A stretch of 43,706 nucleotides of DNA from Vulcanimicrobiota bacterium (GCA_019235715.1 JAFAKE010000050.1:1-43706); one strand, 5' to 3'. Shown: positions 39,009 through 43,706, counted from the first letter of the stretch. Numbers and translations: made by a program. Notes: generated from the letters alone by a model not told the origin.

Positions 39009-39500
39009 ATGCAGCGCGCGTTCCGTCTCATCATCTCACTGGGCTGTGCGATGGCATTCGCGCTGCCCGTTCTCGCCGACCAGAAGCTCGCGGTCGCGCC
39101 GGCTGATGAATATTTCGGCCGCCAAAAGCTCAGCACGCTGGGCATCGACAATATGATCCGCGACACCGAGCAGCGCGAGAACTTCGATCCCACGCTGGCA
39201 TCGCGCTTGGTCGGCTCGCTGTCGACCGCCGAAGACGCCCTTGAGGATTGGGCGCACAAGTATCCACACGACTCCTGGATCCCCAAGCGCGCGTACCAGA
39301 TGTCGCATCTGTTCTGGCGCATGCACACGCCCGACGCGAACAGCCTCGCCGACCGCTGCCGGTCGATCCTGTTCAATCAATTCCCGAAGACGAAGTACGC
39401 GGTGCTCGCACGCGTCGAGACGCAGGCGATGATCGCGCCCGACCCGAGCGCGCAGACGCAAGTCGATCCCGCGCCGGGAGCCACTCCGGCAGCGAAGTAG
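39009..39500 (+). CDS. Secreted DEYFG-motif protein, copy 1
   Basis: A 163-residue protein with a signal peptide (about 23 residues, cleavage near VLADQK). The mature N-terminus has PADEYFGRQKLSTLGIDNMIRD, then AEDALEDWAHKYPHDSWIPK, a helical region, and a disordered tail rich in Pro, Ala and Thr. The same two blocks are in the next gene, so these are tandem paralogs. Family not recognised. The repeated aromatic/acidic motif and helices with YPxDxWxP suggest a small helical periplasmic protein of the TPR-like kind. A GAGGG site lies before the ATG. Confidence 0.7.
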   Translation: MQRAFRLIISLGCAMAFALPVLADQKLAVAPADEYFGRQKLSTLGIDNMIRDTEQRENFDPTLASRLVGSLSTAEDALEDWAHKYPHDSWIPKRAYQMSHLFWRMHTPDANSLADRCRSILFNQFPKTKYAVLARVETQAMIAPDPSAQTQVDPAPGATPAAK

Positions 39501-39546: not shown

Positions 39547-40143
39547 ATGCGCGCTTTTCATTTGGATCGGCCCCTCATCGTGCCGGGCGTACTCATTGCA
39601 CTGAGTCTCGCCACAGCATGTTCGCCCGTCTTGGCATCGGCCGGCGCGCCGCACGACAACGATGTCTGGACGCCGGTGAAGGTCACGGCTGCGCCGATCG
39701 CGCCGCCCCGCCAAGCGCCGGCCGACGAATATTTCGGTCCGGAGCGCCTGAGCAATCTCGGCGTGCGCAACGCGTTGCGCGATATGCAGTTGGAGGGAGA
39801 CTCGCCCCTCGCGCTGCCCCAGCAACTCGATCGCATACGGGCGATCGAGGACGCGCTCGGTATTTGGGCCGACCGCTATCCGTATGACACCTGGCTGCCC
39901 GGCGCTACGCTGGATTTCGCCAAGTTCTTGCAGCGCAAGGACCAGCCGTTTGCCGACGATCTCGCGCACGGCTATTTGATCTTTCTCGACGAGCGCTATC
40001 CGGGAACGCGCGCAGGCTTTGAGGCGCACGCGCTCTTGGGATCGTACCGCCCGTTACCCGCGTTTGACATGTCGAGCGCGCCGTCATTCGGAGATCCGCG
40101 CGCGAGCGTTGGCACGTACCTCTATCCGAAAACTCGGCGCTAG
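39547..40143 (+). CDS. Secreted DEYFG-motif protein, copy 2 (possible lipoprotein)
   Basis: A 198-residue paralog of the preceding gene. Its signal segment contains LATAC (Cys25), a possible lipobox, whereas copy 1 has none there. The motif PADEYFGPERLSNLGVRNALRD is followed by IEDALGIWADRYPYDTWLPG and a helix-rich part ending YLYPKTRR. It differs from copy 1 by about 30 extra residues before the motif and a longer C-terminus. It begins 46 bases after copy 1. A shared, duplicated role at the cell surface is inferred; no enzyme residues are evident. Confidence 0.68.
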   Translation: MRAFHLDRPLIVPGVLIALSLATACSPVLASAGAPHDNDVWTPVKVTAAPIAPPRQAPADEYFGPERLSNLGVRNALRDMQLEGDSPLALPQQLDRIRAIEDALGIWADRYPYDTWLPGATLDFAKFLQRKDQPFADDLAHGYLIFLDERYPGTRAGFEAHALLGSYRPLPAFDMSSAPSFGDPRASVGTYLYPKTRR

Positions 40144-40170: not shown

Positions 40171-40203
40171 AAAAATAAAAGGGCGCCTCCGGGAGAGGCG
40201 CCC
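40171..40203 (-). terminator. Terminator for the first stalk/barrel gene
   Basis: Read on the minus strand, a 9-base stem (40203-40195 with 40189-40181) around a 5-base loop is followed by TTTTATTTTT (40180-40171). It lies 22 bases after the stop of the gene at 40225. It may also serve the convergent DEYFG gene on the plus strand. Confidence 0.85.
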
Positions 40204-40224
40204 TGTCGTTGTGCGGTTTCCCGG

Positions 40225-41673
40225 CTAGAACTTGAAGCCAAGTCCCCCGTAGAAGCCTGAGTGCGAGTGGCCGAACACCGTGCCTGGAACGGGCGGGCAT
40301 CCGACACTGTTGGGGCCTGTCCCCACCGGTTGGCACGTCGATACGACGATCGAGTTGCCGTGCTGGTTGTCGCCGCCCCAGCCCGCGTACAGGTAGAGCG
40401 GGTTGGCGAACGTCCAGTTGACGCCTACGTCGTACTTCACGACGTTGTACTGCAAGCGATAGACGTTGCCAAAGTTGCTGCTGTTCGCATCGCTTACCGT
40501 GTAGTTGCCCTGGTTCGACGGGAAGTCGAGAACCGAGGCGTAGTACGTGAAGTCCTGATCGAGACGCGGCAGGATCTCAAGGCCGCCACCCCAGCCGTGC
40601 AAGCTCGGGAAGCCGCTGTTGAAGCTGTCCTGGCCGTACGCCGCGAGCAGATACATGTTCGCAGGCTTCCAGATCTTGTACTCAAGGCGGACGTCGACGT
40701 TGGAATCGCGCCCCTTGAACGGCGGTGTGAAGCACGTACCGCCATCGATCGTGTTGAAGTACGTCGTTCCTGCGCCCGCCGGTTGCGCTCCGGGCGAGCC
40801 CTGGAAGCCCGGTGTGCAGACCGGCTGGCCGGTCACGCTTGCGGGCACGACGCCGTTGACCGTCGAGTTGTACGTGTCTTGCACCCAATCGACTTTGAAC
40901 GCCCACTCGCCGGCCTCATACGCGCCTGCCGCGACGTACGACTGTCCGACGTCGGTCTGGCCGGCGGCGTACTCGTTATACGTCTTGCCTGAGCGCAGAC
41001 CAGCCTCGACGAAGCCACGATGCACGATCGGCTTCGGTGTCGGCGTCGGCGTCGGTGCTAATGTCGGCGGCGGCGGTGGTGCCGTCGGCGGCTGTGTCGG
41101 CACCGGCGTCGGCGGGATGTAACGCACCACCGTGATGCGCCGGTCGGGCACCCACTGGACGTAGGCGCCGAGCGCTTCGGACATCACGCGCACGGGCACG
41201 AGCAGCACACCTTTGTAGATCTCGGGCGGCACGTCGAGCGGACGCGCTTCGCCGTTGATCACCGCGGTGTTCTTGCCGAGCGTCACTTGAACCGAGGCGC
41301 CGGGCTTTTGCGCGGTCGCCGTCTTGCTCGCGGCATCGTAGCTTACGGTTGCGCCCATCTCCTCGAACATGCTGCGCAACGGAACCAAGATGACGCCGTT
41401 CTTCACAAGAGCCGCAAGCGTACGGTTCTGCTTAAGGATGCTCGGATTGGCGTATACGTGGTGGTCATTGTAAAGGATCGGGATCTCGCCCGACGGCGGC
41501 GATCCGAAGTCAGCTGCGATCTGGGTCCCGGACGTTGCCAGAGTTGCCGTTCCGGAAGCGATCGTCGCATTGACCGCGGCGTCGTTGACGGCCGTGCCAT
41601 CAGCGAAGCTGGGTGCGATCCCCGCGGCGACAAACAGTGCTGCTGCGAAGGCCGCGACGTGGAGTTTTCTCAA
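40225..41673 (-). CDS. Stalk-domain (Cu amine oxidase N-like) outer-membrane barrel protein, copy 1
   Basis: A 482-residue protein. TTG at 41673 is chosen: AGGAGG lies 8 bases upstream in a block that is nearly identical before copy 2, and it gives a clean signal peptide (cleavage near SFADG). Next come a conserved segment (PPSGEIPILYNDHHVYANP) and two copper-amine-oxidase-N/stalk repeats (NGVILVPLRSMFEEMGA; GVLLVPVRVMSEALGAYVQW). A Pro/Thr linker (about 41030-41115) leads to a beta-rich C-terminal half of about 270 residues ending GGLGFKF. The terminal Phe and alternating strands fit an outer-membrane barrel inserted by BAM, with the stalk domain in the periplasm or at the wall. Confidence 0.78.
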   Translation of the reverse strand: MRKLHVAAFAAALFVAAGIAPSFADGTAVNDAAVNATIASGTATLATSGTQIAADFGSPPSGEIPILYNDHHVYANPSILKQNRTLAALVKNGVILVPLRSMFEEMGATVSYDAASKTATAQKPGASVQVTLGKNTAVINGEARPLDVPPEIYKGVLLVPVRVMSEALGAYVQWVPDRRITVVRYIPPTPVPTQPPTAPPPPPTLAPTPTPTPKPIVHRGFVEAGLRSGKTYNEYAAGQTDVGQSYVAAGAYEAGEWAFKVDWVQDTYNSTVNGVVPASVTGQPVCTPGFQGSPGAQPAGAGTTYFNTIDGGTCFTPPFKGRDSNVDVRLEYKIWKPANMYLLAAYGQDSFNSGFPSLHGWGGGLEILPRLDQDFTYYASVLDFPSNQGNYTVSDANSSNFGNVYRLQYNVVKYDVGVNWTFANPLYLYAGWGGDNQHGNSIVVSTCQPVGTGPNSVGCPPVPGTVFGHSHSGFYGGLGFKF

Positions 41674-42009
41674 CCTGTTACCCTCCTGGCGCGAAGTGAA
41701 TAAGATGATCAATTCATTTTGCTCCACGGGTAACGATCGACCGCCACATTTCCCGAGAGCCGGAGACTACAAGCGGTCTCGCGTCCCCAAAAAAGCAACC
41801 TTCAACGATACGGAAGCTCGCATGAAGGCCGCACATCAAAGGACCTTTCTTTTGCGGAACGGCAAGCCCTCCCGCAGGGCGGGTTCATGACACACGCCGG
41901 CCCGCGAATGCGGGACAGCGTAGTTGCGGCAAAACGTCAGCGGTCGAGTCGTGCGACTCGACCGCTTGTCATGCCGGCGCGTCGTTTCACACGCCTGTCG
42001 ATGTCGTCG
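41674..42009. other. Intergenic region between barrel copies 1 and 2
   Basis: This 336-base gap holds the 13-base terminator stem of copy 2 (41939-41966) and two short G/C hairpins (near 41871-41883 and 41901-41914). It also holds a GAGAC/GTCTC inverted repeat (41763-41767, 41776-41780) that would lie in the leader of copy 1. I see no protein-like frame and no convincing promoter. The leader of copy 1 could be over 100 bases long. Confidence 0.5.
41939..41966 (-). terminator. Terminator for stalk/barrel copy 2
   Basis: AGCGGTCGAGTCG (41939-41951) pairs with CGACTCGACCGCT (41954-41966), a 12- to 13-base stem with a very short loop. On the minus strand TTTT follows a few bases later (41934-41931). 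It lies 43 bases after the stop of the gene at 42010. Confidence 0.7.
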
Positions 42010-43359
42010 TTAGAATCGGAATCCCAACCCGACGTACGGACCCGAGTGAGTTTGGTTGATCGGCGCGTTCGCGCGTGCGACCATCACATCGCCATCCCAA
42101 CCAGCGTAGAGATAGACTGGGAAGTTCTTGCTGAACACATAGTCGATACCGACGTCGTACACTTGCGTCGCGTAACGCTGCGTGTAGACGGTGTTGAAGT
42201 TCGGGCTGTTCGGATCGTTGACCGTGTACTGGGCGCTCGAGTTCCAGTAGTAGTAGTACGATCCGTGGAACGTGAAGTTCTGATCGAGATCCGGCAGCTT
42301 CGACAGGCCGGCGCCGAAGCCGTTGAGCTTCGGATAGCCGTAGTTGGTCGCCTGGCCGAGGTAGCTCACGCCGATGTAGAAGTGCGGATCGAAGATCTTG
42401 TACATCAGCTTGGCATACCCGAGCGTCTGGCGCGCCTTGAACTGCGGCACGTAGCACTGGCCGCCGTCGATGGTGTTGAAGAACGTCACCGGAGTGCCCG
42501 GCGCTTGCGGATTGGGCGAGAGCGACGGGTTGCAGACCGTCGGCAGCGCGGGCACCACGCCGTTGACCGTCGTGTTGTACTGGTCGCTGCGCAGACCCGC
42601 TTCGATCGCGAACGGGTTGAACAGCAGCGCGGCGTCGTACTGATAGCTGCCGGTCGTCGTCGCTTGCGCGGCGAACTCATTCGACACGCGGTGGAAGACG
42701 TATGCGCCTTCAGCGAATCCGAGATAGCCCGTCGCGGCTGGCGCAGGCGTCGGCGTCGCGGTCGGAGCCGGAGTGGGCGGCGTCGTCGGCACGGGCGTCG
42801 GCGGCGGCGTCGGCACCGGCGTGGGCGGGATATAACGTACGACGGTGATGCGCCGGTCCGGCACCCACTGGACGTACGCGCCGAGCGCTTCGGACATGAC
42901 GCGCACCGGCACGAGCACATTGCCCTGGTACATCATCGGCGGAACGTCCAGCGGACGGCTCTCGCCGTTGATCACCGCCGTGGACTTGCCGAGCGTCACT
43001 TGGACCGACGCGCCCGGCTTTTGCGCCGTGGCGGTCTTGCTGCCGGCATCCCAGCTCACGCTGGCGCCCATCGCTTCGAACATGCTGCGCAAAGGCACCA
43101 GGATCACGCCGTTCTTGACCAGCGCGGCGAGCGTGCGGTTCTGCTTCAGGATGCTCGGGTTTGCGTAGACGTGATGATCATTATAAAGGATAGGAATCTC
43201 GCCCGATGGCGGAGATCCGAAGTTCATCGACCCCGAATCGGCCGCGATCACGAGTGGGCCGAACGTTGCCGATGTATCCGTTCCGGCGGCCAAACTCGGC
43301 GCGACCCCGCCGAGCGCCATGACGGCGCAGGCAAGAATCGTACAGAAGTGCCTTGTCAA
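42010..43359 (-). CDS. Stalk-domain (Cu amine oxidase N-like) outer-membrane barrel protein, copy 2
   Basis: A 449-residue paralog of copy 1. The start is TTG at 43359, 8 bases after AGGAGG. The signal peptide ends near SLAAG. The stalk region is nearly identical to copy 1 (NGVILVPLRSMFEAMGA; NVLVPVRVMSEALGAYVQW), while the Pro/Thr/Ala linker (about 42728-42829) and the barrel differ much more. The barrel ends YVGLGFRF with Phe at the C-terminus. A hairpin abuts its ribosome site. Probably a surface porin-like or adhesive protein; whether the barrel conducts solutes is unknown. Confidence 0.78.
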   Translation of the reverse strand: MTRHFCTILACAVMALGGVAPSLAAGTDTSATFGPLVIAADSGSMNFGSPPSGEIPILYNDHHVYANPSILKQNRTLAALVKNGVILVPLRSMFEAMGASVSWDAGSKTATAQKPGASVQVTLGKSTAVINGESRPLDVPPMMYQGNVLVPVRVMSEALGAYVQWVPDRRITVVRYIPPTPVPTPPPTPVPTTPPTPAPTATPTPAPAATGYLGFAEGAYVFHRVSNEFAAQATTTGSYQYDAALLFNPFAIEAGLRSDQYNTTVNGVVPALPTVCNPSLSPNPQAPGTPVTFFNTIDGGQCYVPQFKARQTLGYAKLMYKIFDPHFYIGVSYLGQATNYGYPKLNGFGAGLSKLPDLDQNFTFHGSYYYYWNSSAQYTVNDPNSPNFNTVYTQRYATQVYDVGIDYVFSKNFPVYLYAGWDGDVMVARANAPINQTHSGPYVGLGFRF

Positions 43360-43372
43360 TCGGTTACCCTCC

Positions 43373-43392
43373 TGGCACCGTGTGCGGTGCCA
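43373..43392 (-). promoter_or_regulatory. Hairpin abutting the ribosome site of barrel copy 2
   Basis: TGGCACCG and CGGTGCCA form an 8-base stem with a 4-base loop directly before the AGGAGG and TTG start of copy 2 on the minus strand; its last base is the first A of the ribosome site. Copy 1 lacks it although the ribosome site is conserved. It could modulate translation or mRNA stability. Confidence 0.4.
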
Positions 43393-43426
43393 TAGCCGCC
43401 TTCCTTATGCCCACGTACCGCCAGCC

Positions 43427-43465
43427 GAAAACGCGAAGCGGCGCCCCTGCGGGCGCCGCTTCGCG
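43427..43465 (-). terminator. Terminator for stalk/barrel copy 3
   Basis: A perfect 15-base stem (43432-43446 with 43451-43465) closes a CTGC loop; on the minus strand it is followed by GTTTTC. It starts 23 bases after the stop codon of the partial gene at 43489. Confidence 0.82.
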
Positions 43466-43488
43466 CTGTGTGCGCTACGAAGGGTCGC

Positions 43489-43706
43489 TTAGAACTTGAA
43501 CCCGAGACCGACGTACGGTCCGGAGTGTGTCTGGTTGATCGGTGCGTTCGCCCGTGCGACCATCACGTCGCCATCCCAACCAGCGTAGAGATAGACCGGG
43601 AACTGCTTGCTGAATATGTAGTCGATACCGACGTCGTACACTTGCGTCGCGTAACGCTGCGTGTAGACGGTGTTGAAGTTCGGGCTGTTCGGATCGTTGA
43701 CCGTGT
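43489..43706 (-). CDS. Outer-membrane barrel protein, copy 3 (C-terminal end only)
   Basis: The last 71 or so residues of a third paralog, cut by the window end. They read as the barrel end of copy 2 with only a few changes (DYIFSKQFPVYLYAG here, DYVFSKNFPVYLYAG in copy 2) and finish YVGLGFKF. The first 88 visible bases of coding sequence (43619-43706) are identical to copy 2 at 42140-42227. That implies a recent duplication or gene conversion. The stalk domain is expected beyond the window. Confidence 0.85.
   Translation of the reverse strand, partial: TVNDPNSPNFNTVYTQRYATQVYDVGIDYIFSKQFPVYLYAGWDGDVMVARANAPINQTHSGPYVGLGFKF
43619..43706. repeat. 88-base exact repeat of 42140-42227
   Basis: This stretch of copy 3 matches 42140-42227 in copy 2 base for base, including third codon positions, while the flanking part of the same barrel differs at several sites. 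The repeat runs to the window edge, so its full length is not known. Confidence 0.85.

Follow-up and report, generated by a model that had tools for sequence, protein, structure and literature searches.

Three paralogous genes lie head to tail at positions 40225-43706, the right end of a 43,706-nucleotide stretch of DNA from a Vulcanimicrobiota bacterium (GCA_019235715.1 JAFAKE010000050.1:1-43706), referred to here as the window. The window is the entire contig C31 of a metagenome-assembled genome (MAG) of the Eremiobacterota (G000; 2.5 Mb, 107 contigs, 96% complete), and the close relatives with which it was compared are nearly all Candidatus Eremiobacterota MAGs.

A tandem array of stalk-barrel genes

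All three genes are on the minus strand and are transcribed in the order 3, 2, 1. Copy 1 (40225-41673) and copy 2 (42010-43359) are complete. As read from the sequence, each has a TTG start with an AGGAGG ribosome site and a signal peptide; the copy 1 reading frame is extendable to 41727. The signal peptide is followed by a PF07833 stalk (41137-41421, 99.2 bits, in copy 1; 42850-43134, 100.9 bits, in copy 2, both on the minus strand), a Pro/Thr linker and a predicted barrel, which ends in GFKF in copy 1 and has about 10 strands and ends in GFRF in copy 2. The PF07833 (Cu_amine_oxidN1) profile recognizes copies 1 and 2 with 96.5 and 98.1 bits (E 1e-27 and 4e-28), above the curated cut-off of 24.2 bits. 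Only the 3′ end of copy 3, encoding the barrel C-terminus, lies in the window (43489-43706, minus strand), where it is cut by the contig end. The arrangement given in a first-pass annotation of the window, three head-to-tail paralogs of which each complete copy joins a stalk, a linker and a Phe-ended barrel, therefore stands with two complete copies and a truncated third. A Pfam scan of copies 1 and 2 detects no oxidase catalytic domain, no SLH domain (PF00395) and no OmpA_C domain (PF00691), and a profile search finds no OmpA_C elsewhere in G000. The genome has five PF07833 loci, and its three stalk-barrel genes are all in the array; the remaining two PF07833 proteins (L010:856-1923 and L014:1390-2952) apparently lack a barrel.

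The 5′ part of copy 3, which encodes the stalk and 58 residues from the start of the barrel, is found on another contig of the same genome (G000:C26:1-807, minus strand). This part adjoins a thyX-like gene (named from sequence) on the opposite strand, a neighbor that is also found beside the array in relatives. Position 1 of C26 aligns to window position 42550 and the end of C31 aligns to 42234, which leaves a gap of about 315 bases between the contigs. An in-frame TAG occurs in copy 3 at C26:175-177 (L009:175-177), at the linker/barrel junction, where copy 2 of G000 and copy 2 of the relative G002 both have Tyr. Because of this codon, copy 3 may be a broken gene, or the TAG may be an assembly error. 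A separate perfect inverted repeat lies 3′ of each of the three copies on the minus strand: a 10-bp repeat forming a terminator-like hairpin, with a T run after it, 3′ of copy 1 (40180-40204), a 13-bp repeat 3′ of copy 2 (41939-41966) and a 15-bp repeat 3′ of copy 3 (43432-43465). The copies are thus probably separate transcription units. A scan for sigma-70 promoters gave no match.

The structure of mature copy 2 was predicted with AlphaFold2 using an alignment of 100 family members. The model has a mean predicted local distance difference test score (pLDDT) of 82.5, with most of the barrel above 90 and the stalk core (residues 51-150) at roughly 70-95. It shows a two-repeat alpha/beta stalk, a disordered, low-pLDDT linker without helix, and a barrel in which 10 strands are counted from the secondary-structure list of the prediction. 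A barrel in the C-terminal half, as the first-pass annotation had proposed, is thus predicted with confidence, but with about 10 strands instead of the suggested 12 to 16. Foldseek matches the model to the 10-strand barrels of Pla/OmpT and OpcA (E 4e-5 to 5e-4) and also to E. coli copper amine oxidase, and a profile search likewise recovers the amine oxidase stalk.

Family distribution and a candidate link to the cell wall

The stalk-barrel family, Omp85, SLH and OmpA_C were counted in 61 genomes of the class. Every genome of these soil bacteria carries the family (61/61, 3-11 matches each), tandem pairs are common among its loci, and exactly one Omp85/BamA match is present in each of the 61. 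Across the family, the N-terminus of the stalk carries a near-invariant motif, FGxPPSGxIPILYND..VY. The same stalk is also used on other C-terminal domains (L145, L146, L147, L150, L151; L160; L139). In the first five of these proteins, it is joined to a C-terminal domain of about 480 residues ending in YDF. L146, the one member of this group scanned by Pfam, gives an OprD match below the cut-off (E 0.0025), and the other four are its homologues; because an AlphaFold2 model of the L146 stalk and OprD-like fusion, computed from six sequences, reaches a pLDDT of 31, the L146 barrel rests on this sub-threshold match. Pfam detects a pentapeptide repeat, a stalk and a barrel in one protein at L148:4325-6526 and L149:3540-5738, and L152:3540-5729 is assigned to this form by length and architecture only. 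A 501-residue open reading frame (ORF) at L057:1802-3304 contains two family barrels and no stalk.

Stalks and barrels have different histories. Separate trees were computed for the two parts from copies of the genus, family and class, and approximately unbiased (AU) tests were run on each part. In the stalk DNA tree, all G000 and G002 copies group together (100/99), whereas in the barrel tree G006_c falls with copy 1 types (100/99) and G006_b with copy 2 types (99/97). The stalk data reject a clade of the c1 type (p 1.3e-7) and a clade of the c2 type (p 4.1e-4); for a d-type stalk clade the test gives no rejection (p 0.14). The barrel data reject the genus clade (p 0.0036) and a G006 tandem clade (p 5.3e-4). 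The tested groups were picked after the trees had been inspected, so these p values are optimistic. The two trees are nonetheless in conflict: barrel types are old and common to several genera, whereas stalks follow lineage, and this difference reflects stalk homogenization within lineages, barrel swaps, or both. The conserved stalk, the divergent barrels and their conflicting histories bear out the earlier idea of a constant base with diverse barrels. A third copy in G002 was considered and rejected. Its contigs C52 and C34 (the end of L125 and the start of L126) overlap by exactly 141 bases within a stalk-barrel gene, which is one gene split by the assembler.

Our preferred reading, to which we assign a probability of roughly 0.55, is that the array proteins are porin-like connectors between the outer membrane and the wall, resembling OmpM/SlpA in action, with a PF07833 stalk replacing SLH. 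A family protein, with its signal peptide, folded periplasmic PF07833 stalk, flexible Pro/Thr linker and barrel of about 10 strands, would do a double job, with a channel-forming or porin-like barrel in the outer membrane and a stalk that connects this membrane to peptidoglycan or a polymer of the wall, the part played by SLH in OmpM/SlpA. Wall binding, channel activity and oligomeric state are what we infer here from the computed architecture and from precedent.

This reading is the best explanation because SLH and OmpA_C are missing from some genomes, because of what has been reported on PF07833, and because OmpM/SlpA provides a precedent. OmpA_C occurs in 36 of the 61 genomes, and SLH in 34, of which 22 have it in an ORF of at least 500 residues. 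Neither domain is found in nine genomes, which are diderm and 92-98% complete, and 15 have neither OmpA_C nor an SLH ORF of at least 500 residues. No inverse relation is found between SLH proteins of OmpM size and OmpA domains (Fisher p 0.60). An outer membrane has been seen by electron microscopy in a cultured member of the phylum (PMC9758169). In cellulosome bacteria, Cu-amine-oxidase-like domains are counted among the non-SLH anchors that interact with the cell wall, in connection with secondary wall polymers (PMC11557425), the cell-surface protein OlpC of C. thermocellum carries PF07833 (PMC3413522), and the domain is frequent in wall hydrolases (PMC4137172). In OmpM/SlpA, one anchor domain is found on barrels with as few as 8 and as many as 30 strands, and tethering is combined with uptake (PMC9388160, PMC10628300). 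A search of the literature available for this analysis found no paper linking PF07833 to outer-membrane barrels.

Several observations weigh against a wall-connecting function. Peptidoglycan binding by the stalk would follow by analogy with the domain in other phyla. G000 itself carries an SLH protein arranged like OmpM/SlpA (L171:508-3432, on contig C30, its one SLH match), so the array is not the sole candidate tether of this genome, and OmpA-family domains are present in many relatives. Complete stalk-less barrels of the family exist (L154 and L156), which shows that a stalk is not always required for the barrel. The first 50 residues of the model, including the near-invariant motif, have low confidence; such a segment would fit folding on binding or in an oligomer. 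PF07833 of the Paenibacillus superoxide dismutase PaSOD has been studied for a role in dimerization (PMC10432803). Finally, when nearest neighbors were compared for 66 copies of a wider set, only a mild within-genome excess was found for stalks (15 vs 5), which indicates that stalk homogenization is clear for family f1 but does not hold throughout; homogenization throughout the class was rejected as weak by this measure.

Some of these points would fit ordinary porin-like paralogs in which the stalk, instead of binding the wall, only helps the proteins to oligomerize or assemble. The work on the dismutase domain, the stalk-less barrels and the presence of SLH or OmpA-type domains in most genomes all favor this alternative. 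However, it does not account for the nine nearly complete diderm genomes with neither domain, for the reuse of the stalk on other C-terminal domains, or for the standing of PF07833 as a wall anchor in Firmicutes, and we consider it unlikely, although it is the strongest of the alternatives. It is possible, though we propose it only tentatively, that the PF07833 stalk is the main tether between outer membrane and wall in the Eremiobacterota, replacing SLH, Pal and OmpA in part of the class, and that it acts as a cassette exchanged by recombination among several unrelated barrels, thereby joining nutrient uptake to tethering. The mode of attachment between outer membrane and wall divides large bacterial groups, and for diderm Terrabacteria the ancestral system is proposed to have been OmpM with SLH (PMC10628300). 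If the proposal is true, a phylum with a different barrel anchor, in which some genomes lack SLH and OmpA domains, would represent a natural tether replacement. PF07833, a widespread domain named after an enzyme from which it usually stands apart, would also gain a concrete, testable function.

Divergence and recombination among the copies

Synonymous (dS) and nonsynonymous (dN) divergence were estimated as Nei-Gojobori counts. Copies 1 and 2, which had been described as nearly identical in the stalk, are only 83.6% identical there at the nucleotide level (dS 0.78), with 91.5% amino acid identity and a dN of 0.06. In the barrel, dS is 0.75 and dN is 0.58. Equal dS in stalk and barrel means that both halves diverged together, and there is no mosaic in this pair; gene conversion as the source of the contrast between copies 1 and 2, as first suggested, is thereby rejected, synonymous divergence being the same in both halves of the two genes. 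Only dN differs, and the contrast is purifying selection, with the stalk under stronger constraint.

The comparison of copies 2 and 3 gives a different result. Their stalks have a dS of 0.59, whereas dS at the barrel start is 0 over 58 codons, with one nonsynonymous change, and the barrel end shows 88 identical bases with clear divergence after them. The 88-base identity, which the first-pass annotation had reported and which is exact, marks the 3′ edge of the tract (43619-43706 = 42147-42234, minus strand). When the differences were shuffled 20,000 times, such a run arose in 7 of 20,000 shuffles and is therefore unlikely by chance. A 137-base identity in the 5′ part of the tract, at the N-terminal side of the barrel (42550-42686 = C26:1-137, minus strand), arose in 0 of 20,000; it is followed by one mismatch and then by 36 more identical bases. 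The left edge of the tract is the linker/barrel junction, where the linker DNA is of low complexity. Overall, the 3′ fragment of copy 3 is 90.6% identical to copy 2 and 76% identical to the G002 orthologue. Copies 2 and 3 therefore share a recent recombination tract, of which the 88 bases are the visible end, and recombination between copies, as originally claimed, is upheld for this pair.

Because both identical runs stop exactly at contig ends, an assembly effect in which the ends of copy 3 were filled with copy 2 reads has to be weighed as well, and the overlap of the G002 contigs by 141 bases, a typical k-mer size, would fit such an effect. However, the overlaps of 88 and 137 bases have no single fixed length, the longer run continues past its mismatch, and the whole 3′ fragment of copy 3, not just its end, is nearer to copy 2 than to the G002 orthologue; we regard an artifact as improbable. 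Within the wall-connector reading, recombination in the linker or barrel would leave lineage-typical stalks and would keep old barrel types side by side in tandem, with copies 2 and 3 having recently exchanged barrel sequence.

Antigen-like diversification of a surface barrel by gene conversion, which had also been put forward, would be suggested by the tandem copies, the recent tract in copies 2 and 3, and the low-complexity DNA at its edge. It is nevertheless very unlikely. Barrel types are old and are kept as orthologues between genera, whereas antigenic variation would turn them over rapidly, and the event in copies 2 and 3 removed differences between two barrels instead of creating them. 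Moreover, the genome has no silent cassette bank, since only three of its five PF07833 loci are stalk-barrel genes, and the named relatives are free-living and would be under no obvious immune pressure. A role in the uptake of copper or another metal, or in amine oxidation, has the domain name alone in its favor and is the least credible reading, given that no oxidase catalytic domain is found and that N36, D37, V40 and Y41 are near-invariant or invariant in the family but neither His of NDHHVY is conserved (variants NDRH and NDHT).

Neighboring genes and comparison with known systems

Two genes on the plus strand are convergent with the array. N2 (39009-39500) encodes a small exported protein with an APADEYFG motif, and its paralog N (39547-40143), likewise small, exported and with the motif, occupies the same conserved convergent position. 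Neither matches a Pfam family above threshold. Their homologues (motif APADEYFG...LG) occur throughout the class in convergent orientation to stalk-barrel genes, at about 45 loci including L125, L127, L131, L134 and L162, and the family could conceivably be an envelope partner. Elsewhere in the genome, the SLH protein L171:508-3432 was inspected as sequence. This 974-residue ORF combines SLH with a stretch resembling a coiled coil and a large C-terminal part that ends in Phe. Beside it are ORFs resembling a permease and OstA-type lipopolysaccharide export proteins, and BamA (profile match) lies on the same contig, C30, about 14 kb away.

The array proteins share features with several known systems. 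The omptins (OmpT, Pla) and OpcA belong to the same predicted barrel fold class by Foldseek, although at 10-12% identity and a TM-score of at most 0.54 by target the likeness is one of fold only. E. coli OmpA and Pal similarly join a barrel or a lipoprotein to a wall-binding periplasmic domain, but this domain, OmpA_C, is absent from the array proteins and from G000. The PF07833 surface proteins of Firmicutes, such as C. thermocellum OlpC and A. cellulolyticus ScaG, are exported envelope proteins with the same domain, which is regarded there as a non-SLH wall anchor; unlike the array proteins, they are surface proteins of monoderms and have no outer-membrane barrel. The closest parallel in layout is OmpM/SlpA of Veillonella, Deinococcus and Thermus, diderm Terrabacteria in which an N-terminal periplasmic domain, a spacer and a C-terminal outer-membrane barrel are combined and the anchor domain is reused on barrels of differing size. 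In those proteins the anchor is SLH and the spacer is a trimeric coiled coil, whereas the array proteins have a PF07833 stalk, a disordered Pro/Thr linker and a predicted barrel of about 10 strands. Having neither SLH nor a coiled coil, two features that define OmpM, the array proteins are OmpM-like in design but are not OmpM.

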